From the NCBI RefSeq assembly GCF_042453785.1, contig NC_091670.1:3557501-3621500 (forward strand): a DNA stretch of 64,000 bases. The letters run 5' to 3'. The DNA is from Malus domestica. Taxonomy: Eukaryota; Streptophyta; Magnoliopsida; Rosales; Rosaceae. Within the stretch, counting starts at the first letter, position 1. Each line of letters begins with the position of its first letter. Under the pieces are notes generated by a model. That model was given only the letters and a program-made list of their open reading frames with translations, did no database searches and was not told the DNA's origin. Positions 26,290-58,110 of this stretch are shown piece by piece. The translations under genes were made by a program, and so were the position numbers.

Positions 26290-26960
26290 TCCATGTGTGT
26301 CAAACACAAGTGGGTGGACAAATGGATTCCTACCATGGGGTTCAATACAAGTAATTTGCTAAAAAATAATATATAAAATTGTCTATTTTTAACTATTTAA
26401 AATGTTAAACAATTATGCAGGGCAGTTTCGTGACGGATGTGCTATTACCATATCAGACCTTTCAAGCCTAAAAGATGCAGATTCTCCCAATTATCCATAT
26501 TCGTGGGGATTTTCCCGCATGTTCTTAGGTTTAAGAGCTCTCAAATGTTTTTGTTATCTAGAAGCATGACATGAGCTCAATTATGAAGCTTAAGGGCTGT
26601 AAGATTTTTGTCAAACTCAGGGGTAATATTACGTAGTTTACTCACTTGGTTTTAATGTAATCTTTTTCCCACAGGTCAAGAATACTTTTCCCCCACTGGG
26701 TTTTTGCAAACATAATGAGATTTGAATTTGGCACCCACATCGGGTTGGTCCGACCCTTGACATGTGTGTTTACCGTTGCTTATTCATCTCAAGCCTCAAC
26801 ATTGCATTAACTCATATTTTTTTCCCTTAGACTACGAGTTTGTCCTATTGGGTTTAATGTAGCCAGGTTTTGGTGAGACTATATTCTATATGCATCCCTC
26901 AATGTAAGACTCGTGTATGCATTGCATGTGCTTGACGAGAAGACTTCATCAACTGATTTC
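26290..26960 (+). repeat. Repeat D, Copia 3'-region-like, copy 1
   Basis: It contains TTTTTCCCACAGG..CCCCCACTGGGTTTTTGC, the phrase common between pol and the 3' LTR of plant Copia elements. Part (26290-26530) recurs at 30585-30940. The rest recurs inverted at 53960-54440. No open frame is present. Confidence 0.65.
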
Positions 26961-30584: not shown

Positions 30585-30940
30585 CGGGTGGACGAATGGT
30601 TGCGGGTGGGCGAATGGATTCCACCATGGGGGTTCTATATAAGGAATGAGGATCCTCTCCGGATTCTCTTTGTGAGGGTCTTTAAAAGTATTTAAAATGA
30701 TTTTCGATCATACGATGTATAATGAACGGACATAATTTGAGGATCCTCCTGACGATACAAGTATTTTGTTTAAAAAGTAATACATAAAATTGTATTTTTT
30801 TTAATAATTTAAATTGTTAAACGAGTATACGGGGCGGTTTTGTGACGGATGTGGTGATACCATAGCTAACTTATCAAGTTTAAAAGGTGCAAATCCTCCC
30901 AATTATACATTTCGTGTAGATTTTCCACATCATGCATGTT
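30585..30940 (+). repeat. Repeat D, copy 2, with a MITE fragment
   Basis: It follows 26300-26530 (GTGGACGAATGG, ATGGATTCCACCATGGGG, then GGTTTTGTGACGGATGTG and TCCCAATTATACAT). The two halves are separated by a decayed GGATCC-type MITE (30645-30755). Confidence 0.65.
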
Positions 30941-30944
30941 TTTA

Positions 30945-31425
30945 GAGCATCTCCACTCTTTAGTGGAAGACAAGGGCAATAAAATTACCTTTATTATTCA
31001 CTCTAAACAGTCATTGCCTTTTGTTCAAGTCCATCCATTTGGAAGGAGGGTAAATGTGATTACTATTCATACATATCTTTTTTATTTTTTAATGTTTTCT
31101 TCGTCTTATCTTCCACATGTCATTATCGCCGTAGATTTTTGTTTAATTTTCAAGTGTGTTTAACTTGGTAAGTTATTTTGAATTTTTTTTTAGAGTAATT
31201 TTTATGAATTTTTTGGAGTTAGATTAATCATGGTTGTTGAATTGTTCAATTTTTTAACATCATAGGCTTCACAAAACGCCACGTGGCTCATCAACAAAAT
31301 TTTCAATCTTTTTAACCGTTGGAAATCCAACGGTTGTAATGAATCAAATTCGAGCTGGGAGGCTCTGCTGGGATTCACGTGGGGCCCCTTTGTCAGCTAG
31401 GCTCCACGCGGGCGCAAGCTGTGCT
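30945..31425. mobile_element. Short Harbinger-derived element, first link of the chain
   Basis: It begins GAGCATCTCCACTCTTTAGT after TTA (30942-30944) and ends GCAAGCTGTGCT before TTA (31426-31428). Its first 100 bases match the inverted right end of the element at 37640-39443. It carries GCCACGTGGC and CCGTTGGAAATCCAACGG (31278-31333) as the larger elements do. There is no gene. The right terminus is diverged. Confidence 0.6.
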
Positions 31426-31649
31426 TTAAGAGCAACTCCAGCGTATCAAAGGCCCACTAGGGCAACTTCCTATTCAATCCCCTCCAGTTAACAGTAACTG
31501 CCTTTAATGAACAGTAATTGTCTTTTGCATCTCCACCCCTAACTAAATAGTCATGGCAATAGGCAATAAAATATTAGTATTTTTTATTTTATAAAATAAT
31601 ACAAAATAATTTTATTTCTAATTTCGGATAAGATTTTAATCGTTTTTGT

Positions 31650-31880
31650 TGCACCACGTGTCATTATCCGAAAAGATAATTTTTGGTGATAGATTTCGAT
31701 AAGATTTTTATCCAATGTCATCGTGTCATGTGTCGTTACCTTTTCAGAATCGTTGAAGATAGATTTCCAATAAGATTTTTAACCAATCAGATTGCGCCAC
31801 ATGTCACAATCTGTTTACAATCTTTGAGGATAGATATCGATCAGATTTTTAACAAATGACAACATACCATATGGTATTAT
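31650..31880. repeat. About 71-bp array with CCACGTG-like cores, element 1
   Basis: Units of the form GATTTTTAACCAAT..CGCCACRTGTCA lie at about 31654, 31726, 31798 and 31868. The same array is better preserved in element 2 (39700-40020). Confidence 0.7.
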
Positions 31881-32011
31881 CTACAACCTAATCCTTTCTT
31901 TTTCCTTCCTATAACCCACCATCCATCCTAAGAAATCACACACCAAAATCGAAATCACACACCAAAATCAAAATCTCCATCATTATTCATAGTTTCTGCT
32001 TCTTTCTTACA

Positions 32012-33422
32012 ATGTCTTCTTCAATGATGTTGTGGGAAATCGATGAGCAAGAGAAAGAATTGTTTAAGCAAGGGGAAGAAATGTTCAATCTCCAGATGGG
32101 TGAAATTGAGATGGAAGAGGATGAGGATGAGGAGCATAGAATGAGGGATGAGGAAGCAAGAAGCCAAAGAACCTCACATTCCCGTCGAGTCATCCAAGAT
32201 GTATCTCAGATCTCCAGGCCCAGCTGTTCCACAAACATTGATAGAAGCAAGCAACGACGAGGTATGGATCTCTTGGACGATTATTTTGTTTGTAACAGTG
32301 CATTCCCTGATACGTACTTTAGACATCGTTTTAGAATGGAACGACATTTGTTCAACAAAATCATGAATGCTGTTTGCAACCATGATTCTTACTTCGTGCA
32401 AAAGAATGATGTTTTTGGTGTTTATGGGTCTTCTTCTTGAGCAAAAAACTATTGCTGCCTAGTGGATGCTTGCATATAGAGCATCTTCAGACCAAGTGGA
32501 TGAGATAGTGAGGATGGGGAAATCAATCATTCTTGAGTCCCTGATGAGGTTTTGCTCCGCAATCAAATCTATCTACACCACAGAATAGCTTTGGAGACCT
32601 ACTGAGATGGACTTGCAAAGGCTTCTGAAGAAGGGCAAGATGCGAGGTTTTCCTAGGATGATTAGAAGCATCGACTATATGCACTAAACCTGAAAAAACT
32701 ATCCAAGTGCATGGCAAATAGCTTATGGGGACAGAAAAAGAGCAAAAAGTATCATTTTGGAGGCGGTGGCATCATTTGATACATGGATTTGACATGCTTT
32801 TTTTGGTGTTCTGAGAGCTCAAAATGACCTCAATGTCATTGCCCAATCCCCAGTGTTTAATGACGTCCTGCAAGGAAAAGCACCAATAGTCACGTACTGG
32901 GTCAACGGACATAAGTACCATGGACCATACTTCCTAGTAGACAGCATTTACCCAAGGTGGTCATCGTTTGTCAAAACAGTGCCACGTCCGCGAAGTGCAA
33001 AGGAAAAACACTTTGCAAGCTATCAAGATGGGTGTAGGAAGGATGTGGAGCATTATTTTGGTATCCTCCAAGCTCGTTGGGTGATTGTCAGGGGTGCTGC
33101 CATAATGTTTGATTTAGGATCGCTTTGATCCATCATGATGACGTGCATCATTCTTCACAAGATGATTACGGAAGATGAGTATGATTATGATGCCGTTGAT
33201 GAATATGAGCCAGACATGATGAACAATTCCAGAACACAAATATATTGTGCTCATGACGCCACCAAAGAACCTGTGCAACACGAGCCATTACAAAGGGATA
33301 GACGTTACAATGAAAGGCTCATTCAACGATATACTTCACTTCAAGACGTATATATTCACAATGCCCAGCAAATTAACTTGATAAAGCACCAGTGGGAATT
33401 GAAACAAGCTCAAGAAACTTAA
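32012..33422 (+). pseudogene. Harbinger transposase pseudogene (DDE_Tnp_4), element 1
   Basis: The intact start (ATG at 32012) opens an acidic N-terminal segment (EMEEDEDEEHRMRDEE) followed by SHSRRVIQD and LLDDYFV. The frame slips near 32430. Stops replace conserved residues in the catalytic core: TAG near 32590, TAA for Trp near 32685, TGA for Trp near 32790. Catalytic-region remnants are recognisable: SIDYMH where the family has SIDCMHW, LRAQNDLNVIAQSP, GIYPRW-like, and EHYFGILQARW. Here DVEHYFGILQ keeps the Glu. The C-terminal tail is open from 33135 to 33422. The element 2 transposase at 40158-42506 is the close relative to compare. Confidence 0.88.
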
Positions 33423-33628
33423 GTTCATTTAGTGTGTTTGTTTTTATTTGGTGTTTTTATTTAATTTTATTTGGTGTGTTTTTTAAGTTCATTTAGTGAG
33501 TTTTTTTTTCTTTGGTGTGTCTGTAATTTTATTTGGTATGTTAATGTAATTTTATTTGGTGTGTTTATATCCTTTGAATAAAGATTCTCTTGGTTTAAAT
33601 AAATATACTCTTAGTTTAAATAAAGTAA

Positions 33629-34936
33629 TGTTGACCCTAAAAAACTACTAAGCCTACATAGCACGCATGCCGAGTAACTAATGAGCTAACTACGTCATTC
33701 AATTATGTGCGGGGCGTGCCAACTCGATGGCCGAGCTTGGCCGGAGAGTAAAATATGTTGATATTGCGTTGAGCGCACTGCTAACTTCTTGATCTTGCAA
33801 CTACGGCCGAGGAAGGAACACGCCTCGACCTTCGGGTTCTAGAGCATGAAGATAAGACTGCTAGTTTTGCGAAGTTTAATATTAGACTCGGCTTTCAATG
33901 TGTCGAATGTAGTAACCTGGTAATACCTCACTTCACCGAGAAAGCTGATGAGATGACATCTACCAACAAGGATTCAAAAATCCTTGTCGACCGAGACTTG
34001 GATAGGCAATTAGTCGACTTCGAAGCAGTGCTGTTTATCCAAATTGAAGGTGCTCTGCGATCGGCTGACTCTTTGGCAACGTCGTTGTTTATCCAAATTG
34101 AAGATGTCACCGGTTGCCTTCACAATGCTGTTTGTCCAAACTAAAGATGTGTTGGCAAGAAAAAAGAAAATAAAAATCTCAAAGTTGTTTAGAGGTTTTG
34201 CATAAAGCAAGAGTTTACGCAGGGCAATTTGTGTGTTAAATTGGAGAGGGGCATCTCCTGTTGCCACTGCCTCTGTATTTATAAGGACGTGCTGACTTGA
34301 TCCTTGAGTATTGCATTTAATCTTTAACGCGGTTTAGCATGGATCAGACTTAACTAAATGCATGGAGTTATTATGCAATTATCCAACCGATTTAAAATCT
34401 CCATCATTATCTCCTTATTTTGTGCTAAGCAATCCTAATCCAAGTATTTGATGACCTCCTGTGCTGGAGCCAAGGCATGCAAATAATTAGCATGCAAGTT
34501 TATCTCCCAGCCATGCATTTCAACTGAGGCATCACATCAATCAACTCATAATCTTTCCACCAAGTCTGTCCAGGTGCAATCATGCATTATCAAAAAATTC
34601 AACGTAATCACATCTCCCAACCCTCCACATGTATGCATGTGCCAACTAGAGAATTGCAAATGAATTGCAATTCTTTTTCTGATCATTGGTTATTGTATAA
34701 CCATTCTTCTTTAATATTATCTCATGCAGAAAAACCCATTTCCAAACAAATGCCAGGTTATTGCTCATATTCAATCTAAATAAATTGATATATTATTAAA
34801 AGATAATATCATGATTAAAACCACAATATATCCTTCAATAATAATTATCTTAACTATTCTGCCATCCAACAGTTGAGAACTATGTTCATCAATGGCCTTG
34901 ATTGCACGAGCCGATAGTGTAAAATCAGGTCCAAAC
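33629..34936 (+). mobile_element. Solo LTR (1.3 kb) in Harbinger element 1
   Basis: It runs from TGTTGACCC to GGTCCAAACA with imperfectly matching ends. Flanks are AGTAA and AGTAC; element 2 has AAAGTACAA at the equivalent site, so AGTAC is the original target and the left copy has mutated. A TATA box (GTATTTATAAGG) lies near 34272. No genes are present. Confidence 0.75.
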
Positions 34937-35047
34937 AAGTACTAAATTCAATAAATTGGAAACAACATAAAGTACTCTATTCAATAAATAAGAAATTACA
35001 ACCTAAAGTGATTGGAAAATTATGGGCTCCGATTAAAAAAAAATTCC

Positions 35048-35480
35048 CTAGTCCCTCGTGAATGGAAAAGCATCACCTAACCAATTTGTGGTGCTAAGAC
35101 CATCTTCTCTTGCTCTCGCTTTTCTTGCACGCCTCCTTCGCACCACGTCCACTTTCTCCAAATTCCAAAAATATTTAGAATTCAGAGACATCGCCTCTGC
35201 AGGCTCCTTCATAATGTCACGATCTTGTTGAGCCATTTTTTCTTCTTTAAGCTCTTCCCTTTCTTGCCTAAGTAGCTCTCTTTCTCTCTCATTAGCTTGA
35301 AATAATCTCTCAGCAGCTGCAGCTTTTGCCTCCTCTCTAACCTTATCAGCTTCAAATTTAGCCATTTCCTGCGCCAAAGTCAATTCACATTGGCCAGAAA
35401 GTTCTTCCATATATTTTACATAATCATTCTTGGAAGCACTCCCTTTTCTTTTTGAAGCCTTCTTACCTTAAGGCTTAGTC
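35048..35480 (-). pseudogene. Accessory-protein C-terminal fragment, element 1 (NAM-associated type)
   Basis: The minus-strand frame contains a basic Ser-rich stretch, YMEELSGQCELTLAQEMAKF, a long charged helix (ERERELLRQEREELKEEKMA), and SLNSKYFWNLEKVDVVRRRR. It aligns to the C-terminal half of the intact accessory protein of element 2 (42974-43705). Upstream coding sequence stops at about 35480, where a foreign repeat replaces the middle of the gene. Confidence 0.82.
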
Positions 35481-35481
35481 A

Positions 35482-36785
35482 AGGGTGTGTGGGAAGTAAA
35501 AGTAAAAGTGGGTGTGTGAATAGCAATATCCTAATGCAAATCCTAGTGCAATACTGCAATGCCATTCCAAACCGAGATAGAGTGCGTAGGGAGCTGGTTT
35601 TTAATGAGTTATGATAGTAACTATGGTACAATTTTTGTATGGGAAATTTAGTTCCCTTTGTTCGTTGACCGACTGTTTCAAAGTTTTTTTGTTTACTACA
35701 ATTTGCATGTAGTTAGGGTTTCAGCCCTTTGCCATGTAGCCCTGTGCATCTTTGAGGCGGGCAATGTTAGTGCTAATACTTAGCATAATATGTATATGCC
35801 CGAACAAAGATTTAGGCCAACCCACGTATAACACAAACTTAATGCTGTTAAAGGTTCCGCCTTTGTATGTTATTCTAAAATGTCTTTTCAAATCTTTAAG
35901 CTAAGAAATTATCATATTGATTCTTCTAAACCTTTTCACCAGATTGTCTTGGACTGTTATCATGAAAATGCAGTGTCATAGATTTTTGAATGAATAAATA
36001 TCATATTATCTTATCAAGATTGGTTTTGTTGTATAAGATATGTCAAGTGGTTGCATTCTTTTGTAGACCATGGTTGTGGCTGCCCTTTATGGGCTATAAA
36101 AATCTCCGCAACACTTGTTGATGACACAACGTGTCGGAGAACGTATTGAACATTAGGAGATGGTGAGATACCGATGTGGGGACTTCCAAAGACCACCCTT
36201 TGGGCTTGTGGCAATCGACTCAATGGGAGATCTGGGATTGTGGATACATTCCATCAGAATTAGTCAGCAATTAGAATAAAAACTGAAAATGAATTATATT
36301 CCACCAGTTTTAAACACAAATAGTGGCACTAATCACATATTTTGCAAGTATAGCAGAAATATGAACACGAACTAACAATTGAAACCTATGGTAGATACAA
36401 ATTGCCTAAACAATTGAAACTTCTTTGATCCCTATGTATTTTTGAGTTGAAGAAGTGAAATAATCCAGGCCCGAGCTGTGTCATCGACATTCAGTCAGGA
36501 AAGCCTCGATAGGAGAGTGGGTTGTAGGTCAATGCTGACTCTGATAAGTCAGTAAGAAATTTAGGAAAGTTAGGAAAAAGAAAAGGCCTAGTGTTTGATC
36601 CTGGTTGATGGCTTTTCAGTCAAGCTAAAGTTCGATGGGCCAGTTGATTGCTGGCCAAACAGTGAGAAAATGTTTAGAGGAATAAAACCAACTGTTACAT
36701 GAAGGAGGCTTAGGCTTACCATGGCCACACCTTCCTATGTGGGAAATAAATAGATGGGATGGGTGTACCACAGCAACATGTATAT
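35482..36785. repeat. Repeat R, copy 1 (inside Harbinger accessory gene)
   Basis: It is near-identical to 48937-50300 over its whole length, starting at GGGTGTGTG and ending at CAACATGTATATG. It replaces about the middle third of the accessory gene. No matching short duplication flanks it, so it looks like an insertion with deletion (filler) and not a clean transposition. Confidence 0.8.
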
Positions 36786-36794
36786 GCTGTGATT

Positions 36795-36953
36795 GGGTTT
36801 AATTTTCTCAAGAAAAAGAGTATGAATAAGACTCCACATTTCTCGCAACTGCATCTTATTACCCGTAATCGGATCATGAGTAACTTCAACCCAGCTAGAA
36901 CACAACGTAACATCTTCAATAAGCGTCCAATTCGTACCTGCATCATTAGTCAT
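36795..36953 (-). pseudogene. Accessory-protein Myb/SANT N-terminal fragment, element 1
   Basis: The ATG at 36953 (minus) opens TNWTLIEDVTLCSSWVEVTH and continues DPITGNKMQLREMWSLI, the Myb/SANT-like domain of Harbinger accessory proteins. It aligns with residues 1-40 of the element 2 protein. The rest is lost at repeat R. Confidence 0.8.
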
Positions 36954-37639
36954 TTTGTTGGAAACCAATTGGATTGAAACTTTGAGAGAAAGATTGGAAT
37001 GCGGTTGAAAGTATTTGAGAAAATATAAAATTGTGGTGTAAGGTAGAAGATAATAAGAAGGTAACATATTTGAAATCCATTGGATTAAAAAAAAATTGAA
37101 ATCCAACCCTCCAGATTGTGCCACGCAGCACAACGGTAACATATTTGAATTTTTTATTTTTTCTATTTTTTTATTTTTTTATTTTTATAGGCGAATAACG
37201 TGGACCATTGATCTCAAATCCAACGGCTGATATTGCAAAAGGTTTGAAATTTTTTTTGACCGTTGGAAATCCAACAGTCCATACAAAGTATCCATTGAAT
37301 CCAATGGACGAGAACGTGCCACGTGGCCCACCAATAGTAACATTACATACCTCTGGACCGCGGGCCCCATTAATTGAAAAGTTGTCAGTGACGTGCCCCC
37401 ACACACACATGTGTAACACGCGCCTGATGCAAATTTTATTATAACATGGCTGACGTTAGCCTTGCATCATCGGGCCTTAGGCGCTCGGGCCTGCTATTCA
37501 AGCCCGCCCTCTCACTTGGGCCCCCCTCAGCCCAATCGCCGGCATGGACTGGAGCAAGGAGCTAGGGCTATTAGGTAGGAAATTTAGCCGATCCATCGGG
37601 CTGGAGCATACGGTGGAGTTGCTCTAAGAGGCAGAGTAA

Positions 37640-39443
37640 AGCAACTCCACCAATGATCAATTGCCTCTGCGATTGGGTTTAATTTCCATCCAATCCTTGA
37701 AAAACTGCTCTAGCAATTGAAAAAAATGAGGGCAATTGATAATGGCAGATAGTACGATAGCTATCCTGCTAATTGTTGCAAGGACAGGCGCCCAACATTT
37801 CCACCAGTAGACCCCCCCCCCCCCCGTGATAAGCTTTGAGCCAAACAACTTTTTCTCTTTAAAAAAGAACCGTTGGAAATCCAATGGTTCTTTAATCTAG
37901 ACCGTTGGTTTTCCAACGGGAAAAAAGTTTTACCCTTTTATGGTCAACTACCACGTGGTAGAATCCTAACCTTTCAACGGTTATAATTTTGAAAATCAAC
38001 GACCAAGATTATTTTAACGGAAATAAATTTTAAAAAAAATATTAAAAAATTCCTATAAAATTTCAAAAATATTCAAATTTTTTTTTCTATAAATGCCAAC
38101 CATATTCTTCATCCTTCACACCACAACTCAATATTTTTTTTTTTTACTACAATCCTTTTTGTTACCAAGAAATATGAGTGACAAGTCAAATTGGATGATT
38201 AAGGAAGACGTTGCTTTGCTTTGGGCTTGGGTGCTTGTTACTCATGATTAGATCATTGGAAATGAGATGAAAGTGCAACACATGTGGCATAAGATTCATG
38301 ACCATTTGTCAAGCTAATTCAAGACACATCTCGGAGAGGACAATCAATGTCGAGTAAATACAGACGCTTGCATAAAGATTTGAAAGCTTGGTAAGAAGCC
38401 CTTGCAAAAGCGGAAGGACTTTATCAAAATGATACTAATCTAGCTGATATGGTAATCTTATTTTATTGTTAATAAAAATGAAAATAATATGTTAATTTTT
38501 TACTTTTATTAAGTAAATCTTTATGTTGTCCCACACTTTTTTTTTTTTAGAAACTACAAGCTCAAATATGGTTCAATCTTGACAACAAGAAATCATTCAC
38601 AAGGCACGAATGTTGGAACATTGTGAAGCAAACTCCAAAGTACAAAGTTCTGCCTATTGGTCCACATGTTCAGTTGAACCAGACTTCATTGCACGAATCA
38701 AGTACTGAAGAGTCTCCATTGGAGACCCCATTGGAGACACCATTGGTAACCCCTATTGAATCGGTCACACAAACTGAAGAAACAACAGGGCCTATTGGTA
38801 AGAAGGTTGTTAAGAGAAAAGCTGCAAGAGGGAGTTCTTTGAATAAATGATTATTCAAAAACTATTGATGAATTGGCTCGCCAACATGCATTGAATATGG
38901 AACGAGGCAGATTAATGTATGAGCAAGACAAGGCTAGAGATGAAGCAATGGCGAGAGAAAGAGAATTGAATCGGCAAGAAATGCAAAAGGACAAGGATAG
39001 GGAGATCATGTCTTGACCCATCGATGGTGAATCTCCTAATTCAAAAAGTTTTTGGAGAAGTGAAAAAAATCGGGTCATGAGAAGAAGGTTTTCCTTGGAA
39101 GATGAGGAAGTTCCACACACTCCAAGGGAAGACGAACCGAGCCACATTGATTTTATCCCCTAGTTTAAAAATTAGTTATATTTGTTGTAATGCGATAACT
39201 TTCCGTTGTATTGTAATTATTTATTGGAATTAGACTTTAATTATGTTTGCTATGACGCCCACATTCATTAAAAAACTAAAAAAAAAATATTTGTAAATAG
39301 TAATCGCCCTTGCCCTTGCCCTTCGTCCTTTCAAACTGGTAGACTTGCACAAAAGCAATTACTGTTTAGAGTGAATAGTAAGGGCAATTTTATTGCCTTT
39401 GCTCTCCAATTGCCATTGCCTTCCACCAATTGGTGGAGATGCT
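37640..39443 (+). mobile_element. PIF/Harbinger element 3 (1.8 kb, no transposase)
   Basis: The left end AGCAACTCCACCAATG follows TAA (37637-37639). The right end GGTGGAGATGCT precedes TTA (39444-39446); the inverted ends match after one or two terminal base changes. It carries only a broken accessory gene (38174-39163). Its orientation is reversed relative to elements 1 and 2, with the accessory gene reading inward from the left end. A C15 run lies near 37811. Confidence 0.7.
38174..39163 (+). pseudogene. Accessory Myb/SANT plus NAM-associated protein, broken, element 3
   Basis: The frame starts MSDKSNWMIKEDVALLWAWV and then reads LVTHD. A TAG follows at 38249, where relatives have a sense codon before IIGNEMK. 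An intron-like stretch follows, with exon 2 from about 38551 (LQAQIWFNLDNKKSFTRHEC, then IVKQTPKYKVLPIG). The frame slips near 38845, then continues IDELARQHALNMERGR and ERELNRQEMQKDKDRE. After a further TGA at about 39015 it reads SPNSKSFWRSEKNRVMRRR, ending in TAG at 39163. It is the counterpart of the element 2 accessory gene. Such proteins are thought to bind element DNA and bring the transposase into the nucleus. Confidence 0.83.
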
Positions 39444-39699
39444 TTAAGAGCAAGTCCACCCCTAAGGACTTTGTGCCAGCACCCAGCCCATTTATCCACT
39501 CCAGTGAACAGTAACAGACTCAAATGAATAGTAATAAGCCAATGCATCTCCACCCCTAAAAAAATGCGCTGGCACCCAGTGAAAAAATGCACTGGCACAA
39601 ACGATCTCCACCCCTACAAAATGCGCTGGCACCCAGCCCATTTAAAATTTTTTAAAATTTTTTCTAAAAGAATAAAAAAATAAAATAGTTTTAATTTTG

Positions 39700-40020
39700 G
39701 ATATGATTTTTAACCAATCTTGTCACGCCACGTGTCATTATCTGAACGTACTATTTTGTGAATAGATTTCCGCTAAGATTTTCAACCAATCCCGACACAC
39801 CACGTGTCACTTCCGTTTTACAATAATTTAGCCAAGATTTCGATAAGATTTTTAACCAATCACGTCATGCCACGTGTCATTATCCGAACGTACTATTTTG
39901 TGGATAGATTTCCGATAATATTTTCGACCAATCCCGACATGCCACGTGTCACTTCCGGTTTACAATAATTTAGCCAAGATTTCGATAAGATTTTCAACCA
40001 ATCACGTAGTGCCACGTGGC
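39700..40020. repeat. Five-unit 70/72-bp array with CCACGTG cores, element 2
   Basis: CCACGTG occurs at 39728, 39800, 39870, 39942 and 40012, spaced 72, 70, 72 and 70. Each is preceded by AACCAATC and sits in a unit containing GATTTYCGATAAGATTTT. It lies about 140 bases upstream of the transposase start. Confidence 0.9.
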
Positions 40021-40157
40021 ATTGTCCAAAACCTCATCCTTTCTTTTTTTGTCCATATAAACCCTACATCCCTACATCCATCCTCACACCAAGCTCAGTC
40101 TTTCTTTTTAGCTCAGAATCCTAGTTCATCGTTTTCAAATATTGAGTTCTTATTACA

Positions 40158-42506
40158 ATGTCTTCTTCAAGAAGGGTGTATAAACAGTTGCAGGAGCAAC
40201 AACAAAGGTTGTTGGCACAACAGGCAGAATTGGCCAATCTCGAGGAAGATGGAGGTGGAGATGAGGCTTTCTTCATGGAGGAGGATGAGGATGATTGTGG
40301 ATGCAAATTTTCTCCGCTTCGATCTTGGACGATTTTGCACCTACAAAACAACTAGCACCTTAGGTTAAGACCAAGAGCCTCACGCGCCCACGATGAATGG
40401 GGGGGGGCTTTGGCCGAAGAACCTCCGATGCCAAAGTTAGAATTTTAGAGAGAAATAGTGTTTAGAATATTTGGGATTTTTTCCAAAGTGTTGGAATTGG
40501 CTTTTTTGGTGAGAATGAGAGTATATTTATAGGGATAGGAGGTGGCTAGAGTTTTTTGGGTTTTGTTCATGATTGATGGTAATTTTAGGAGTTATGTAGT
40601 TAATTGACTAATTAATTTGGCTAAATAGAATTATTGCCAAATTAATTAGCTAATTAGTGGGATGAAATGGGCAAATATGGGGAGATCCACTAGGATGGCC
40701 GGCCATTTGGGAGTTTTGGGGTTAAATGGATGACTTTCAATTAACAATTAATATATTATTTAGGTAAATATATTAATTGGCTAATTAACATTACAAAAAG
40801 GAATGAATATATGATTTTTATGGCATGATCAACTAATCAATCAAAAAGATTAGCTAATCAGATGTGAAAAAGGTAAGTCAAAGTGGGAAAATAAAGGAGA
40901 TGGCCGGCCCCTCTTTTGGGAGAGAGATAACCGGCCTTACGGGTGTTTTTTGGTGTTATGGCTAATTTAATTGACAAATTAATGAGTAATAATCCCATTA
41001 ATTTGTCAATTATCTTAATTTATGTAGGATAATTGGTAGGTTATGAAATAACTACCTAAAATGTGGATGGATGAGATATTTGGAATTGGTTACCTTTTCT
41101 GGAGCATTTTTGACTTGGTTGAGGATGATTGCTTGCTACTCGCACGTAAGATCCTCGTTATACATCAAGGGTATTTTTGTCTTCTTTTTCCCAAAATCCA
41201 CGTGTCGCCTTGTGAATATTTTTTACTCCACAATGATCACCATAGAAGGCAGAAGGCCTCACATTCCCGCCGTGTCATGGAAGCCGTGGGTCAAATAGTC
41301 AAACCAAGACGTGTTGCAAACCTCGATAGAAAAAGGGAAAAATGAGGTAAAAATCTATTGGAAGATTATTTTATTCCCAATAGCATATTCCCTGATCATA
41401 TTTTTAGACGGCGTTTTAGAATGCAACGAAATTTGTTCAACAAAATCATGAGTGATATTTGTAACCATGATCCATACTTTGTGCAAAAAGAGGATGCTTT
41501 TCATGTTCTAGGTCTTATTCCCGAGCAAAAAATTACGGCGTCCTTGCGAATGCTTGCATATGGAGCATCTGCAGATCCAATGGATGAGATCGCGAGGATG
41601 GGAAAAACAACTGTTCTGGAGTCCCTGATGCGGTTTTGCTCTGCAATTGAAGCCCTCTACACCAATGAGTACCTCCGGACACCCATGCCAAGGGACATGC
41701 GAAGGCTTCTAAGGAAGGGTGAGATGCGAGGCTTCCCTGGCATGATTGGAAGCATCGACTGCATGCATTGGACTTGGAAAAACTGTCCAAGTGCGTGGCA
41801 AGGAGCATATGGCGACAGAAAAGGAGCCAAAAACATCATTTTGGAAACGGTGGCTTCATTTGATACATGGATTTGGCATGCTTTTTTTGGTGTTCCAGGA
41901 GCTCAAAATGACCTAAATGTCCTTGCCCAATCCCCAGTGTTCGACGAACTGCTGCAAGGAAACTCGCCGAGATGCACATATTGGGTTAATGGTACCCATT
42001 ACGAGGGATCATACTACCTTGCAGATGGCATTTACCCAAGGTGGTCAACATTTGTCAAAACAGTGCCACATCCACAGACTGAAAAGGAAAAACACTTTGC
42101 AAAATGTCAAGAAGGGTGTAGGAAGGATGTCGAGCGTTGTTTTGGTATCCTGCAAGCTCGTTGGGCGATTATCAGGGCTGCAGCTAGAATGTTTGATGTC
42201 GAGGCTCTTCGATCCATCATGATGACGTGTATTATTCTCCACAACATGATTGTTGAAGATGAGTATGATTATGATGCCGTCGATGAATATAAGCCGGATC
42301 CGATGAACAACTCAAGAACACGTATCTATTGTGCTCATGACCGGACCGAAGATCCAATGCAACACGAGCCGTTGGAACGCGATGGACGTTACAATGAATT
42401 GATCGTTCAACGGTACACTAATGTGCAAGAGCCATACTGGCACGTAACCCGCCAGAATGACTTGATTGAGCACCAGTGGGGATTGCATGAAGGCGAAGAT
42501 AATTAG
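40158..42506 (+). pseudogene. Harbinger transposase, catalytic core intact, interrupted by solo LTR and one stop
   Basis: The family is DDE_Tnp_4 nuclease that cuts and joins the element at TTA/TAA targets. The ATG at 40158 opens a Gln/Glu-rich start ending in EEDEDD, where the solo LTR (40296-41232) splits the frame. Immediately after it the same frame continues HHRRQKASHSRRVMEAV. A TGA at 41343-41345 then interrupts, followed by an uninterrupted run from 41346 to a TAA/TAG at 42506. From the Met at 41358 (382 residues) the core carries the expected acidic triad: D134 in GSIDCMHW, D185 in GAQNDLNVL, E259 in DVERCFGILQARW. Only the LTR and one stop separate it from an open gene. A shorter product starting at 41358 would keep the core but lose the N-terminal region. 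Confidence 0.9.
40296..41232 (+). mobile_element. Solo LTR (937 bp) in the transposase gene
   Basis: The ends TGTGGA and TCCACA are exact inverses, and ATGAT flanks both sides (40291-40295 and 41233-41237). A TATA box (GTATATTTATAGGG near 40510) marks the plus orientation. The transposase reading frame joins cleanly across it. Confidence 0.93.
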
Positions 42507-42529
42507 AATGAGGCTTGTGGTTGAAGAAT

Positions 42530-42780
42530 AAATTGTATTTTTTTTTAAGTTTATGTAATTCTATGTAGTGTGTTTTGTTTTTAAGTTTATTTGGTGAGTT
42601 TATGTAATTCTATTTATTTGGTGAGTTTATGTAATTCTATGTAGTGTGTTTTGTTTTTAAGTTTATTTGGTGAGTTTATGTAATTCTATGTACTGTGTTT
42701 TGTTTTTAAGTTTATTTGGTGAGTTTATGTAATCTTATTTCATGTGTTTAAATAAAGTACAAAAGAAATAAAGTTTTAAA
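42530..42780. repeat. Tandem TTTAAGTTTATTTGGTGAGT units between convergent genes
   Basis: Three or more units of about 50 bases (TTATGTAATTCTATGTAGTG, TTTGTTTTTAAGTTTATTTG) lie at the shared 3' end of the two element 2 genes. A looser form occurs at 33430-33560 in element 1. Confidence 0.8.
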
Positions 42781-42973
42781 AATAAATAAATAATTACATT
42801 AAAATTGCATAATAAATTAAAGTAAAATAAATAAAGTTTTAAAAATAAATAAGAAATAACATAAAAATTACATAAGAAATTAAATAAAGTTCAAAAGAAA
42901 AAAGAAAGAAAAAACATAAAAAATACATAAGAAATTAAATAAAATTCTAAAAAGATAAGAAATTACATAAAAA

Positions 42974-44254
42974 TTATACAAAGTCTGTCGAGTTAGGATA
43001 TGTGGTGCTAAGATCTTGGTTGCCATGATTTGTGTAGCTAGAACCCCCTTGACTTGTTTCCGCATCTCTTGCACGCCTCCTTCGCATGACATCTCTTTTT
43101 TCCGATGTCCAAAAATATTTAGAATTCGGAGACAGTCCTACTAGAAACTTGCTTATAGTGTCACGATCTGCTTGAGCCATCCTTTCTTCTCGAAGCAATT
43201 CATTTTCTCGATGAAATGCTTCTCTAACCAGCTTGTTCTCTCGATTAACTACTTCTCTTTGTCTCTCAGTCGCCGCATCACAGGCCTCAGTAGCTGCTAA
43301 TATTGCTGCCATAGCAGCAACTTTTTCCTCATCTCTAGCCTTTTCTTGTGCCATGTTCAGTTCACCTTGGCGAGCAAGTTCTTCCATATATTTAGTGTAG
43401 TCATTTTTGGAAGAACTACCTTTTTTCTTTGACGCCTTTTTACCTTGAGGCCTGAGGGACTGACGAGTCGGTTGGGTCTCGGGCACTTGTTCAGGCATCC
43501 CTTCCGTGTCTTGAAATGTGTCGGCTTCTTGTTCAGCCATGTCTGGTTCTGGAGAACTATGTAGACCCATACCGTGCATGACAACTTCTGGACTGGTTGC
43601 CACAATTTTGTATTTAGGGCAATCTTTGACAATTTGCCAACATTCCCATCTAGTGAATGATTTGTTCTCGTTCTTTGAATTGTAGAATGCTTGAGCTTGT
43701 AGTGTCTATAAAAATGTGGGATAACATAGTGTTAAAAAATGTGAGTGTAACACAAATAAATAAATTCAAAATATTGATACGGGTGGAATGCATATAAATT
43801 ACATAAAAATGACATAAGAAATTAAATAAAAATTACATAAGAAATTAAATAAATTAAAATTTTGATGCGGGTGGAATGCATATAAAAATTACATAAGAAA
43901 TAACATAAAAATTACATACGAAATTAAATAAATCAAAATATTGATGTGGGTGGAATGCGTATAAATAAATAAAAATATTGTCACCTGATCCGCTAAACTT
44001 GTCCCACTACGGAGGTTACCGGAAGCATGAGAGATGGCGTTTTTCCAACAAGTAAAGGATGCGTTGAGTTTTTTCCAACGACCTTGAAGACCTTGACTTG
44101 TTCTGGCGTCTTTTCCATGTACATCACAAAACGCTTTCGTAATTTTACTCCACATTTCTCGCTTATCCATCTCATTACCCATAATCGGGTCATGAGTAGT
44201 GTGAACCCAACATTCACACAACGTAACATCTTCAATGAGCTTCCACGAAGACAT
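42974..44254 (-). CDS. Harbinger accessory protein: Myb/SANT-like plus NAM-associated C-terminal domain
   Basis: There are two exons, 44254-43985 and 43705-42974. The intron has CAG/GTGACA and TATAG/ACACT borders and both exons are in phase, giving 333 residues with no stop. Residues 3-75 form the Myb/SANT-like trihelix (KLIEDVTLCECWVHTTHDP, REMWSKITKAF, SLQ-like GLQGRWKKLN). The second exon has AFYNSKNENKSFTRWECWQI, an acidic linker, a Lys-rich SLRPQGKKASKKKGSSSKND, then a coiled-coil (about residues 190-280). It ends with SPNSKYFWTSEKRDVMRRRR. In Ping/PIF elements the equivalent protein works together with the transposase and binds element ends. That it is intact while the transposase is interrupted means this copy could still supply the partner protein. 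Whether it is transcribed is unknown. Confidence 0.88.
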
Positions 44255-44479
44255 TTTTTTCTCTTAAAGTGTAGAAAATATTGAAATGTAGATAGTATAG
44301 AAAGTGTAGAAAATATTGAAATGTGGTGTAAAGGTGGAATATGAGGGTTAGGTATTTATAGGAAAAAAAATTAACATTTTTCAAAATTTTCTGTAATTTG
44401 TTTAAAATTTTATGTATTTTTTAATAATTTTTCTGTATTTTTTAATAATTTTTAATGAATTTTAATATAGTTAATTAAT

Positions 44480-44700
44480 CTGGACCGTTGGATTTGAAAA
44501 ATATTCAAATCCAAGAGCCAAGGAGTTGCCACGTGGCCAATGATCATATTTCTGACCGTTGGGCCCTTTTTTTTGAAAAAAATGTGGACCGCTGATCTTT
44601 GATCCGATGGTCTATTTTAAAAGTAAAATTTAAATTTTTTTTACAGTTGGAAATCCAACGGTTTAGAAAACTAGCCGTTGGAAATCCAACGGCATGGAGG
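44480..44700. repeat. Palindrome cluster at the accessory-gene end of element 2
   Basis: It contains GCCACGTGGC (44527) and two copies of a CCGTTGGAAATCCAACGG-type palindrome (44645, 44671). GACCGTTGGATTTGAAAA is also present. Matching sets lie at 31278-31333, 37255-37326 and 37868-37957 in the other Harbinger elements. Confidence 0.8.
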
Positions 44701-44973
44701 GAGCCACGTCGCTAACTCGGGAGGGGGGAACTGAGTGGGCCTGTGATGCGGGCCTACGCTCTGAAAGCCTGTCGGGCACTCGCGCCACGGCTCCGTGAAG
44801 CGCACGCGCCAGGCAAACAGCCTGGCTTTTTGCTCAGTCTCTTTTGGGTTGGCCCAGAGCCCAGCACGGGCTGGGTACCAGTCAAGTTGAGGGGGTGGAC
44901 TTGGTTGACAGGGTGCTGGCCTATTTTTTCGGCTGGGTGCTAGGCAAAAAGCCCTCCGGTGGACTTGCTCTAA

Positions 44974-45358
44974 GGACTCTTGCCTTCCACCCTATTGGTG
45001 TATGAACATTCAGCTGCAGTATCACTGTTAATAACATCCAAAACAGATTATTTTTGTTTGTAAGAATGTTGCACACTCAAAGTCCTAGCTTATTCATACT
45101 AGAATTCAAGACTTAAATCCAAATAAGCCAAGAAGCAGTCACCAATTTAAGCCAAGCTCTAATATTTGGAGCAGGACCTCTACGAGCAGAAGTTGAAGGG
45201 AAAATAAAAGTATTATAGAAAGACAAATAATTTTTGGGCCAATATGTTCGGATGTTTAGAGCTAGCAATACGAACATAGGAGAGCTATCCATCTTGACGC
45301 GATGATGTGGAGGTGGTGGTGGCAACTCGCGATTGAGAGGATAGTCAGGAGAAGATGA
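44974..45358. other. Intergenic
   Basis: No gene is seen. The first copy of the hAT target site (TGGTGAAT) is at its right end. Confidence 0.4.
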
Positions 45359-46478: not shown

Positions 46479-46897
46479 GAGCAACTCCACCCTTGGAGCC
46501 ATTCCCCCTGGCAATCCACTATTGAATCCACCCTATTGAACAGTAACTGCCTTTAATGAATAGTAACTACCATTAATGAACAGTAATTACCTTTTGCATC
46601 TCCACCATTGGAGCCCTCCCCCCTGGCAATAGGTAATAAAATAGTAGTTTTTTTTGTTTGATTAAATAATATAAAAAAAAAAAAAAAGGGAAATGGGGCT
46701 GTAGGGCCTCGGGCTGACATAAAAAACAATAAAAAAATGCCTTGGCCCTCGGGCTGCAGGCCTGTCAACTCTCCACCCCCCTTGTGCTCGGGCTCCCACC
46801 CTCACTTGGGCCCTCCATGGCTGGAGAAGAATCAACCGGCCCTCGGGCCCATTCCTGCAGCCCGTCCCTCGAGCAAAGTAAAAGGCTGGAGTTGCTC
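46479..46897. mobile_element. Tourist-like (Harbinger) MITE, 419 bp
   Basis: GAGCAACTCCA.. is inverted at the right end (TGGAGTTGCTC), with TTA on both sides (46476-46478 and 46898-46900). Interior phrases (TTAATGAACAGTAA, TTTTGCATCTCCACC) match the ends of Harbinger element 1 (31490-31545), so it is probably a deletion derivative of that family. Confidence 0.88.
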
Positions 46898-46900
46898 TTA

Positions 46901-47789
46901 GAGACGAGCCCGCCCAGGCCCCATGCTTCCTAAGTTTTGGACCTACCCCGCCCCGTAATTACATTCGACCCGCCCCGTACCGTCTCGTTTCTTCTTTGAT
47001 AAACTTGTACCATCACAAATCCCCCTCGAATCGCGAGTATCCACCCTGACCTGCGGGTCGTGGACCGGTTTGCCCACCCTTAACCTACACTTAATAAATG
47101 AAAATATTACTATATTATAGTAGTATGTGGTAAGATGATTTTAAGTAACTGATTATTTGCTTTATATGGGGACGACTGCTCTAAATTTTTTTTGTTTCAT
47201 TTTTCAAAAATATCAGAGATCGATTTTAACTGGGCTTAACAATTTCTTGCACAACTCGTTAACCAAACACGAAATGATACAAAAATAACAAATTTTGAGT
47301 CCACCCGTTAACGAGTTAAGTCGTTATCGTGTCGTCTGTTAAGAATCTAATAGGAAATCCTTTGCCAGATTTAGACATTAGGCATGACAATTTCTTGTAT
47401 GACCTGTTAAATCGAATCGAATCGTTAACGAAACGACACGACCTGTTAAGATAATACGTATGACATGAACACTACAAACACAATTAGTTTGTCATACCTA
47501 AAATTAGACATAATAAACCAATAATAATTTGATATCGAACATTCCGGCTAGTGGAAGTTAAAAACATCTGTTTCCAAGTGGCATGGAATAGGAACCCATC
47601 AAAACAAGGGGTGTGTCACACCCCATTTTACTTTTCACACATCTCTTGATAATTTATGTTCGTTGATTTTCTTCAATTCATTCGATCTGACAGCTAAAAA
47701 ATAAAAAAGTATGTGAAAAGTAAAATAGGACGCCCTGAAACAAAACAACTAAACTAATATGGGAGAGTAGAGTAGACTCCATACTTGGA
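46901..47789. other. Repeat remnants upstream of the sphingomyelin-synthase-like gene
   Basis: No gene is seen. 46905-47085 looks like the end of a hAT-type element (GACCCGCCCCGTA.., GCCCACCCTTAA). 47215-47515 is a decayed relative of the hAT MITE at 53224. 47608-47745 has inverted halves of a MITE (GTGTGTCACACCCCATTTTAC against GTAAAATAGGACGCCC). The host gene's promoter must be short or lie within these. Confidence 0.5.
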
Positions 47790-47876: not shown

Positions 47877-50800
47877 ATGCGGTGGCTGCCGCTGAGGTCC
47901 GGTGGCCTTGGAATCGTCGCCGTGGCCTATGTGGCAGTCGACTACCTCCGCCACCTCTCGCCCACGTGGCACGGCCGTCTCCAGCCCGCGCTGCACACCG
48001 TACTCGCCGTCATTGCCGTCAGTCGGGTCCCTTTCTACAGGCACTGGACCTCTGAGTTTCGCGTCGTCTTTCCCTTCATCGGTTCCATGCTCTTTATGCT
48101 CTTGGCTCTTCTCTTTGAAGCTCTCTGCGTCCGCTTTGTCACCGCCGCCCTCGGCCTTGATTGGAACAGGTATTGTCCTTTATTCCTTATTCTTCCATTC
48201 ACTCTCTCTCTCTGTGTCTCTATGTGTATTTTGATCTACGTTTTCTGCTCATTGAGCTTAAATACAAGTGACCCAGATGTTTAATCAGCCAGAATTTCGA
48301 GTTCTCTACTTTATATTTCGGGTTTTAAATTCCTAAATATTATGTGGGTCGAGTTTGATTGTGTTGTTTTTTCGGAAGTTCATCTAAATATGGCAACATC
48401 CGAATCATCTGTTGTGTTTATTGTGCTAATTTATTTACCAGATGTGGTCAATTTTGTGCAAGGATTAGTGCCAGCATTTTAAGGATCTGATCTTACAATT
48501 TGTGCAAGGATTAGTGCCAGATTTAATGCTCATATAGATAATTAAAGATGTCAGCGAAAATGTTTGTTAATGGTATGCTTCTTGTGAGCAATTACCCTCA
48601 GGGAGATGAGTTTTTCCTTTTTTAGGGCTTACAAGGAGTTTGAACTCAGTTTCTACCCATTAATGCAAAGGGTAGTGCCATCCACATACCCATGTTTTTT
48701 TTTTTATGAACAAATAGTATTATCTATACTAAGGAGGAGGGGGTGGGCTTAGCCTCATAATGGCTAGCAATATTGTGGTTCATACTTGCCCTTGGCGAGA
48801 ATTGAACCTAAGACCTCTCACTTACAAGTGAAGAGAAATACCACTTCACATACCTATGTTTACTTCTCACACACCCCTCTCAATTTTCGACCGTCAGATC
48901 AAATGAATTGAAGAAGATCAATGGCCAAAAATTAACAAGGGTGTGTAGGAGGTAAAGGTAAAAGTGGGTGTGTGAATAGCAATATCCTAATGCAAATCCT
49001 AGTGCAATACTGCAATGCCATTCCAACCCGAGATAGAGTGCGTAGGGAGCTGGTTTTTAATGAGTTATGATAGTAACTATGGTACAATTTTTGTATGGGA
49101 AATTTAGTTCCCTTTGTTCGTTGACTGACTGTTTCAAAGTTTTTTTGTTTACTACGATTTGCATATAGTTAGGGTTTCAGCCCTTTGCCATGTAGCCCTG
49201 TGCATCTTTGAGGGGGGCAATGTTAGTGCTAATACTTAGCATAATATGTATATGCCCAAACAAAGATTTAGGCCATCCCACACATAACGCAAACTTAATG
49301 CTGTTAAAGGTTCCGCCTTTGTATGTTATTCTAAAATGTCTTTTCAAATCTTTAAGCTAAGAAATTATCATATTGATTCTTCTAAACTTTTTCACCGGAT
49401 TGTCTTTGACTGTTATCATGAAAATGCAGTGTCATAGATTTTTGAATGAATAAATATCATATTATGTTATCAATATTGGTTTTGTTGTATAAGATATGTC
49501 AAGTGGTTGCATTCTTTTGTAGACCATGGTTGTGGCTGCCCTTTATGGGCTATAAAAATCTCCGCAACACTTGTTGATGACACAACCTGTCGGAGAACGT
49601 ATTGAACATTAGGAGATACTGAGATACCAATGTGGGGTCTTCCAAAGACCACCCTTTGGGCTTGTGGCAATCGAGTCAATGGGAGATCTGGGATTGTGGA
49701 TACATTCCATCAGAATTAGTCAGCAATTAGAATAAAAACTGAAAATGAATTATATTCCACCAGTTTTAAACACAAATAGTGGCACAAATCACATATTTTT
49801 ACAATATATTTTGCAAATATAGTAGAAATATGAACAAGAACTAAATAGATAAGAGATATAAATCACATAGCAATTATGTTTTCTTACATGTAAACCTATG
49901 GTAGATACAAATTGCCTAAACAATTGAAACTTCTTTGATCCCTATAGTATTTTTGAGTTGAAGAAGTGAAATAATCCAGGCCCGAGCTGTTTCATCGACA
50001 TTCAGTCAGGAAAGCCTCGATAGGAGAGTGGGTTGTAGGTCAATGCTGACTCTGATAAGTCAGTAAGAAATTTAGGAAAGTTAGGAAAAAGAAAAGGTCT
50101 AGTGTTTGATGCTGGTTGATGGCTTTTCAGTCAAGCTAAAGTTCAATGGGCCAGTTGATTGGTGGCCAAACAGAGAGAAAATGTTTAGAGGAATAAGACC
50201 AACTGTTACATTGAAGGAGGCTTAGGGTTACTATGGCCACACCTTCCTATATGGGAAATAAATAGATGGGATGGGTGTACCACAGCAACATGTATATGGT
50301 GTGTGCTTCCATTCCAATCAACTGTTTCCATATATCAATTTCTTCTTGGAATTTTTTTTTTAACTTATGCACAGATAGACACCTCCTTCTTTTCATCCTT
50401 TAAATCTTGCACAAAAGACTTATTCAGTACAAATGTCCCTGGTATAACTTATTTGTGGCTTCTTTCTCTTTGTTTCTTTGCCGCCCTTGGTATAGGGGTT
50501 CTTGTTGCTGCAGAATTTCAACTTGGGTTCTTGTTACTGCATAAATGCTGCCTGTGGTATCTATTAATTTTTGTTGCTGCTCACAACACCATTAGAACAC
50601 CTCCATAAGCTTCTCCTTAGGCTTCCGTCTTATACCTATTTAATTCTATCTTTGGACTAACAGGTATAAATTAAGTATAAATTGCCTTCAGTTGCTCCAA
50701 TCGGGACCACCACTCGTCTGGAAGGATTGATATGGTTCTAACTTATCAATAAAGCGACTTAATGATGAAATAACAGAGTTGCTTGGTATCCAACCATAAT

Positions 50801-55589: not shown

Positions 55590-56746
55590 ACTAAAGAACC
55601 CTCGACTTTCCCAACTTGCCCTTACACTTTCACTCTTGCCATTCTGCCCTTCTTATTCACATGGCTTCGTTCCTCTGTCTATTTGCCCTTTCCTCTTTTT
55701 CGATGTTCCCTTCTTGCCCTGTTGCTGCACAGTGGATGCCTTATTGCTCATCTTCACGATATCGGTCATTCTTTGGAATTTCAGATCAACTTTGGATGCA
55801 TCTACAAGTTCCCGCATAACCTTGTGTTGAGGGTTACTGCAGCTGGCCCTAAAAGAAGCATTCCAGTGGTGCTCCTTGCCAAGATCGATGGTTTTCTTGA
55901 GAGAGAATTTTCGACTAAATATTTGGACTGGGTGGCGCAGCTTATATAGCCATGTGTTCCGATGGGGATTGGAGGGAAGGAAAGAGTCGGTTACCTCAAG
56001 TTGTTATTTCTGTTATTAAATTTGTTGCTTTCTGTTATTTTCTTGCAACTGAAACATTTTTGTTAAAGATTATTAAATTTGTTGCAATTACACTTTTAAA
56101 TCTCAAATACGCTGTGACGATATGCTTAAGGGCTTGAGAAGGATATATGTGGATATATATTTACAATGAGTTTGGTATCGCATCGTGGCTAACTGATGTG
56201 GTTAAGTAGCTATTGTGCGTAGGTTGACTCATTCCAACTTCTAAAGGTACTTGCATATATCCCTATTATTATAGATTTTAGATTCAACTCCGATGAATGA
56301 TAAATTGATATTTAATTATGTTAAGCACATTGTACAATTTAGTCTAATTCTCAGTTTACAGTTGTGTAAAAAGGATTAAAATAATCTAGGCAAATGATCC
56401 ATCAAAATTCTAATAATTAATCCGACCAAAAAAATTAAGGTTGAAAAAATAAACAAAATAAATACAACTCTATCTACATAGACTCTCTGTCACCTCATAT
56501 TTTTTGGTATAATATTTTATAATACGAACACATAAATTGACGTTAAACAAGTCTATGGAGAGCCTCATTTTGATTTGGTGAAGAAGAGTGCAGTTTGCAG
56601 TAGCACGTGACGTCACAGGAACGTCCTCCGGGAACTCAGGAACAAGGCAAACAGACGATCGCCGAATCGTGTTCGATTCGGGTTCGCAAGACTCAACTGC
56701 CTCTCAAACTTATCATCCGTCCGATCAACATACTTTTGTTGTTCCA
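55590..56746. repeat. Duplicated block, copy 1 (antisense orphan fragment, repeat U, thioredoxin-promoter copy)
   Basis: It holds, in order, the antisense of the orphan coding fragment (55610-55945), repeat U (56137-56460), and 190 bases matching the region upstream of the thioredoxin y gene (56555-56746). Copy 2 is 58690-59800. The thioredoxin gene itself is not present here; after TTGTTGTTCCAAC the sequence jumps into repeat R. Confidence 0.85.
56604..56616. promoter_or_regulatory. CACGTGACGTCAC site in the duplicated promoter copy
   Basis: This is the same 13-mer as at 59601 upstream of thioredoxin y, here without a gene downstream. Confidence 0.5.
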
Positions 56747-58110
56747 ACCTGTCGGAGAACTTATTGAACTTTAGGAGATACCGGTGTGGGGTCTTCCAAG
56801 CACCACTCTTTGGGCTTATGGCAATCGAGTCAATGGGAGATCAGGGATTGTGGATACATTCCATCAGAATTAGTCAGCAATTAGAATAAAAACTGAAAAT
56901 GAATTATATTCCACCAGTTTTAAACACAAATAGTGGCACTAATCACATATTTTGCAAGTATAGCAGAAATATGAACACGAACTAACAATTGAAACCTATG
57001 GTAGATACAAATTGCCTAAACAATTGAAACTTGTTTGATCCCTATAGTATTTGTGAGTTGAAGAAGTGAAATAATCCAGGCCCGAGCTGTGTCATCGACA
57101 TTCAGTCAGGAAGGCCTCGATAGGAGAGTGGGTTGTAGGTCAATGCTGACTGTGATAAGTCAGTAAGAAATTTAGGAAAGGCCTACTGTTTGATGCTGGT
57201 TGATGGCTTTTCAGTCAGGCTAAAGTTCGATGGGCCAGTTGATTGGTGGCCGAACAGTGAGAAAATGTTTAGAGGAATAAAACCAACTGTTACATTGAAG
57301 GAGGCTTAGGGTTACTGTGGCCACCCCTTCCTGTATGGGAAATAAATAGATGGGTTACTGTACCCCCTCTCTTGCTCTGTGTTTGTTGCTTTCTGTGTTG
57401 TTCCCCCTTGGGTGGGCTTCGTGTTCATTTGGCTTCGGTCCTGGTTATTTTATTTCTAGTTCTCCAAAAAAATAAAAAATAAAAATAAATAAATAGATGG
57501 GATGAGTGTACCACAGCAACATGTATACGGAGTGTACCACAGCAACATGTATATGGTGTGTGCTTCCATTCCAATCAACTGTTTCCATATATCAATTTCT
57601 TCTTGGAATTTTTTTTTAACTTATGCACAGCCAGGCACCTCCTTCCTTTCATCCTTTAAAATCTTGCACAAAAGATTTATTCGATACAAATGTCCCTGGT
57701 ATAACTTATTTGTGGCTTCTTTCTCTTTGTTTCTTTTCCGGTTTGTTATAGGGGTTCTTCTTGCTGCAGAATTTCAATTTGGGTTCTTGTTACTGTGCAA
57801 ATGCTGCCTGTGGTATCTATTAATTTTGTTGCTGCTCACAACACCATTAGAATAGCTCCATAAGCTGCTTCTTAAGCTTCCGTCTTATACCTATTTAATT
57901 CTATTTTTGGACCAACAAGTATAAATTGCCTTCAGTTGCTCCAATCCTTTAGTCCTTCCCAGATCGTTAAAAGTTTTCTTTAAACTTTCACCTAACAAGA
58001 AATGGTCATTTCCTTCAATTACCATTTACCAATCAAGTTCTGTTCTTAACTAGGTATGCAACTTTGCCTTATTTCAAATATCCACTGGGACCACCGCTCG
58101 TCTGGGATCC
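56747..58110. repeat. Repeat R, copy 3 (left-truncated)
   Basis: It begins CTGTCGGAGAAC, inside the unit seen at 49592, and then follows copies 1 and 2. It includes a retro-insert at 57355 and a small duplication of GTGTACCACAGCAACATGTATA (57507-57552). Confidence 0.75.
57355..57486 (+). mobile_element. Short poly-A retro-insert
   Basis: A 132-bp insert (TTACTGTACCCCCTCTC to an A-rich tail) is flanked by exact AAATAAATAGATGGG copies (57340-57354 and 57487-57501). The duplication and A-tail fit a SINE or a truncated LINE 3' end. Confidence 0.8.

Follow-up and report, generated by a model that had tools for sequence, protein, structure and literature searches.

Can transposons of one superfamily build a regular array, each copy landing in the target duplication made by the copy before it? 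This question is raised by a 64,000-nucleotide stretch of the apple genome (Malus domestica, assembly GCF_042453785.1, contig NC_091670.1, positions 3,557,501 to 3,621,500 of the forward strand; hereafter the window, in which all coordinates below are counted), where a first-pass annotation had described four PIF/Harbinger elements standing end to end between 30945 and 44973 and a fifth, short one nearby. Members of this superfamily move by means of a cut-and-paste transposase together with a second protein, ORF1 (open reading frame 1), and use TTA/TAA targets. The locus contains genuine elements and one genuine joint at a shared target site, with part of the cluster perhaps nested, and we think that it is probably an ordinary cluster of PIF/Harbinger elements belonging to several related subfamilies, each of which inserted independently.

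Three of the four elements in the row, here called E2, E3 and E4, are bounded by terminal inverted repeats (TIRs) and target-site duplications (TSDs), whereas the first, E1, could not be confirmed as a whole element with its end at 31425 (see below). E2 (31430-37624, plus strand) carries the TIR GAGCAACTCCAGCGTAT / GAGCAACTCCACCGTAT between two copies of TAA, the left one at 31427-31429. E4 (39448-44970, plus strand) has GAGCAAGTCCACC at each end and is likewise flanked by TAA on both sides, the right copy lying at 44971-44973, and the separate short element E5 (46479-46897) has matching TIRs and a TTA/TTA duplication. The matching terminal repeats of these three elements all start with GAGCAA and are 13-17 bp long with 0-1 mismatches (17 bp in E2 and 16 bp in E5 with one mismatch, 13 bp and exact in E4), and their duplications are identical on both sides. 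E3 (37640-39444, minus strand) has the TIR AGCAACTCCACCAAT / AAGCATCTCCACCAAT, which is 15 bp long, contains one mismatch and is offset by one base; its TAA/TAA duplication requires a left terminal repeat that is one base short (AGCAACTCCACC versus AAGCATCTCCACC). The 3-bp TTA/TAA duplication of the superfamily is thus found at all four of E2 to E5, although at E3 only with this one-base asymmetry of the TIR. The 9-bp extended target consensus of PIF/Harbinger, CWCTTAGWG, is matched at 8 of 9 positions by the site of E2, at 7 by that of E5, at 6 by that of E4 and at 5 by those of E3 and E1; background sites have a mean of 5.0, with at least 6 in 26%, at least 7 in 6.1% and at least 8 in 1% of them. 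A preference of PIF and mPing for an extended target of 9 bp is stated in a passage of PMC2836001, and the anatomy of PIF elements is enumerated in a passage of PMC6327408. The TIR of E4 is one base pair below the 14-25 bp range of PMC2213677, and the motif G(N)5GTT, by which Medicago elements are recognized in the relevant passage of that paper, was not found at the termini of E2 to E5.

The coding content bears out the assignment to PIF/Harbinger that had been made at first sight. The transposase reading frame of E4 (41358-42506, plus strand, 382 amino acids) matches the Pfam families PF04827 (E = 4.2e-93) and PF13359 (2e-11), and a piece of E2 (32853-33128) matches PF04827 (3e-28), so that a plant Harbinger-type DDE transposase is found in both; two further transposase pieces of E2, each submitted alone, gave no Pfam match. 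On the opposite strand of E4 lies an ORF1 region (42974-44254, minus strand), consisting of a Myb/SANT-like part (43889-44254) and a second part (42974-43603). The former has a weak match to PF13873 (1.4e-4), which at 22.1 bits stands above the cut-off of 21.7, and supplies the Myb/SANT domain of ORF1; PF12776 stays under its own cut-off for the same segment. Two ORF1 pieces of E2 submitted to Pfam gave no match, and in tblastn pieces of both E2 and E3 match the ORF1 of E4. E2 follows the plan of E4 and lies parallel to it, but both of its genes are broken, the transposase by a frame change and 6 in-frame stops. The transposases of the two are 67% identical as proteins and their transposase regions 76% identical as DNA over 1442 columns, and two stretches of ORF1 are 68% identical over 424 columns and 82% over 99 columns. 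E3 is shorter and contains decayed ORF1 pieces, oriented opposite to the ORF1 of E4, with 54% and 39% amino-acid identity to it and 2 stops in the aligned parts (tblastn). E3 and E4 are diverged relatives and lend no support to the idea, put forward in the first-pass annotation, of a single family targeting itself.

It is between these two elements that the only demonstrated end-to-end joint is found. The order there is TAA-E3-TAA-E4-TAA, a single TAA (39445-39447) being common to both elements, and the bases at 39441-39453 read GCTTTAAGAGCAA. E4 is probably the younger of the two and inserted into the duplication of E3, since it is less decayed; the joint taken alone is equally compatible with the reverse order and with the two elements having moved together. 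The same GCTTTAAGAGCAA has exactly one other mismatch-free occurrence, at 31423-31435, and the observation that two junctions read alike is to that extent correct. At the latter site the right half marks the beginning of E2, while the left half has no recognizable Harbinger end. Allowing up to 2 mismatches brings the count to 5, where 2.39 are expected; at least 5 were obtained in 8 of 100 shuffles.

The elements are spaced by 4 bases (E1/E2), 15 bases (E2/E3) and 3 bases (E3/E4), the last having been counted previously as 4. The spacer between E2 and E3 (37625-37639) reads TAA GAGGCAGAG TAA, that is, two TSDs around nine other bases, and these elements are neighbours that are not joined. The E1/E2 joint is unproven because the claimed right end of E1 is near chance level, so that of the three boundaries one is a demonstrated shared-TSD joint, and the notion that the TTA/TAA of one insertion became the target of the next is supported for E3/E4 only.

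E1 (30945-31425, plus strand) represents the left portion of a Harbinger-like, non-autonomous element whose right end is not established. Judged from the sequence, its left boundary is secure, since paralogous repeats at 26345-26959 (plus strand) and 54458-53949 (minus strand) run through the site without E1 (GCATGTTCTTAGG and GCATTTTGTTAGG) and the repeat copy to the left of E1 stops at the TTA target (30942-30944), after which E1 begins with GAGCATCTCCACT. This dispersed repeat lies at 26312-26959, 30604-30926 and 55075-53949, the middle copy breaking off at the TTA that precedes E1. Ends were scored by comparing 13 bases with the 13-base terminal repeat of the family, using the 6345 TTA/TAA flanks of the window as background. 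The claimed right end of E1, read inward, is AGCACAGCTTGC, versus GAGCATCTCCAC at the left; it scores 2 if the element ends at 31425 and 6 if it ends at 31426, the latter being the fairer register because the same shift lowers the own end of E3 to 2. A score of at least 6 is reached by 8.3% of the flanks, and the right ends of E2, E3, E4 and E5 score 12 or 13. E1 therefore shows a left end only, rather than two matching terminal repeats with a TSD. In inverted orientation, the sequence at the left end of E1 matches that at the right end of E3, with 30971-31094 being 75% identical over 137 columns to 39401-39266. We also considered one outer element reaching from 30945 to 39444, the ends of which are inverted repeats over about 150 bp, and set it aside because a left TIR and a TAA belong to E3 itself.

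These scores bear directly on the chain of four elements that had been proposed. There E1 would end at 31425 as ...GCAAGCTGTGCT followed by TTA/TAA, with a decayed right TIR and a TTA duplication; E2 would have used the overlapping TAA of the resulting TTAA, and E4 would have done likewise at E3. Both flanks of E1 are indeed TTA when its end is set at 31425, and the 8 bases TGCTTTAA at the claimed end are the same as those at the right end of E3. Nevertheless, the claimed right TIR agrees with the family repeat at 6 of 13 positions at best, E1 has no recognizable TIR at the joint, and E2 and E3 form no joint; we consider a regular end-to-end chain unlikely. One may also consider that E3 and E4 moved as one unit, bounded by the left end of E3 and the right end of E4. 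The outer duplications are both TAA, as is also expected of such a composite, and MITEs (miniature inverted-repeat transposable elements) able to transpose alongside another MITE are mentioned in a passage of PMC10664404, but no feature of the sequence demands a move of this kind and E3 appears more decayed than E4, suggesting separate ages, which makes the composite decidedly unlikely. Last, the similar reading of the E1-E2 and E3-E4 junctions could be taken to mean that a segmental duplication of such a unit made the block, an explanation that we reject as almost certainly wrong, being contradicted by orientation (the ends of E1 and E3 are mutually inverted while E2 and E4 are parallel) and by divergence (E2 and E4 share 68-82% identity where they align, and each element has inserts that are absent from the other).

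Under independent insertion, the reading that we prefer, the far end of E1 may lie elsewhere. Just to the right of E4, at 44980-45000 (plus strand), is TTGCCTTCCACCCTATTGGTG, which is identical to the right end of E3 in 19 of 21 alignment columns; it may be what is left of an E3-type terminus and perhaps represents the far end of E1. Under strict scoring, none of 5000 shuffles of the region reached its score, and 1 of 10000 shuffled random stretches did; beyond the ends of E1 and E3, only those scanned windows that contain 44980-45000 reached it (2 of 6344). The remnant is oriented as the right end of E1 would be. Cut-and-paste insertion as a rule removes no flanking DNA, and because of this the owner of the end at 44980-45000 should extend leftward to the bases before E3 and before E2, which are those of E1. 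E1 may thus once have reached to about 45007, with E2 and the pair E3 and E4 inside it, a possibility for which we consider the chances to be roughly balanced.

Several results weigh against such a nest. The bases 44995-45007, the last 13 of the supposed end, agree with the family repeat at 5 of 13 positions, a value reached by 21.8% of the flanks, and therefore do not surpass the rival end at 31426. The likeness of the remnant to the left end of E1 (score 20, with a mean of 17.2 and a standard deviation of 4.3 over the windows) was equalled by 116 of 6344 windows. With looser gap scoring, the likeness of the joined flanks to the E3 end was equalled by 101 of 3000 full shuffles; that of the joined flanks to the left end of E1 was equalled by 57 of 3000. 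When the remnant was kept, the alignment was as good with the pieces next to the joints shuffled (1394 of 3000) or randomly replaced (2211 of 3000). The pieces beside the joints contribute nothing, and the joined-flank alignment is without added support for a continuation of E1. In addition, a TSD does not survive at about 45007, and the right half of the outer dispersed repeat, searched for to the right of the cluster, was not found there; since the outer repeat does not resume past the cluster, a deletion may have taken the true right end of E1.

If the insertions were independent, the order of arrival that we infer would be as follows. E1, old and non-autonomous, would have come first, into a TTA of the dispersed repeat, and E2 next, at a TAA within or just beside E1. 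E3 would then have landed 12 bases further along, and E4 most likely went into the right target duplication of E3, leaving the TAA common to both. Every one of these insertions could have proceeded by the standard cut-and-paste transposase and ORF1 at a TTA/TAA target.

Does the shared site nevertheless reveal a preference for existing ends? When five elements were placed at random TTA/TAA sites in 20000 trials, 0.4% of the trials yielded one or more shared sites, and 0.005% yielded two or more gaps no longer than 15 bp. Local clustering in this one window exceeds random placement, but the site was chosen because of its cluster. At the density of the window (5 elements and 3173 sites per 64 kb), one expects 12 shared-site pairs in 200 Mb and 37 in 600 Mb in the absence of any preference, figures that are probably too high because the density of the window is probably above the genome average. 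One joint is no evidence of self-targeting. It could be argued that Harbinger transposases of this lineage favour a TTA/TAA beside existing Harbinger ends, since half of the favoured target is supplied by the terminal GAG beside TTA, and that end-to-end arrays of different subfamilies accumulate genome-wide; we regard this as highly improbable. Were shared-TSD joints enriched genome-wide, relatives would be using Harbinger ends as landing sites, and MITE clusters would be easier to explain. As matters stand, the cluster has an explanation of a familiar kind, and its single clear joint alters little.

That MITEs and Harbinger elements nest and cluster has already been published, as passages of several papers attest. 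In maize and rice, MITE insertion into members of the same family is common (PMC3695323, citing Jiang and Wessler 2001), 11% of rice MITEs are in multimers (PMC10664404, citing the same study), and that study is also cited, in a passage of PMC5907723, for the nested architecture expected of transposon multimers. Like the members of our cluster, the MITEs described in these passages inserted into or beside one another; among our elements, by contrast, two are of coding size, and a single TAA serves two of them at one joint. In the case of MtPH-M-2-IIa of Medicago truncatula, an ancient copy of a related PIF/Harbinger element was similarly targeted by later nested insertions, which gave a composite, in a sequence of 21,696 bp, but the bases at the joints are not part of the description in the relevant passage (PMC2213677). 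The carrot DcSto elements show, according to a passage of PMC3695323, independent insertions at the same or very close positions to other elements, although they are of the Stowaway type with a TA target rather than Harbinger. Elsewhere, tandem MITE arrays in coral are attributed to replication slippage (passage of PMC2872659), and self-insertion is given as a possible reason for the rarer reinsertion of longer elements (passage of PMC10288884). The words nested, multimer and tandem are absent from the review PMC12595863. A description of a shared-TSD Harbinger joint was not met in those passages that were read from papers retrieved for end-to-end or self-inserted Harbinger elements, and we do not claim its absence from print.

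Viral contigs scanned with the E4 transposase gave two pattern matches, neither of which was confirmed as a relative. Within E2, a repeat of about 1.3 kb is nested at 35480-36791, with copies at 48936-50303 (93%) and, in pieces, at 56745-57560; TCAAG near both of its ends is a possible 5-bp duplication. Some 1.2 kb of E2 (33630-34930, boundaries approximate) are without a counterpart in E4 by BLAST and are apparently a further insertion. E4 in turn has an insert of about 0.94 kb (40295-41233) in the 5' part of its transposase region; this insert has the termini TTGTGGA...TCCACAA, is flanked by TGA on each side and is possibly another DNA transposon. The left subterminal region of E4 contains a tandem duplication (39696-40030) with a 142-bp period and copies that are 90% alike, and a related but more diverged counterpart of this pattern is present in E2 at 31621-31861. 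Further along the window, 47241-47416 and 53550-53375 are inverted copies of a 176-bp repeat and are 76% alike.

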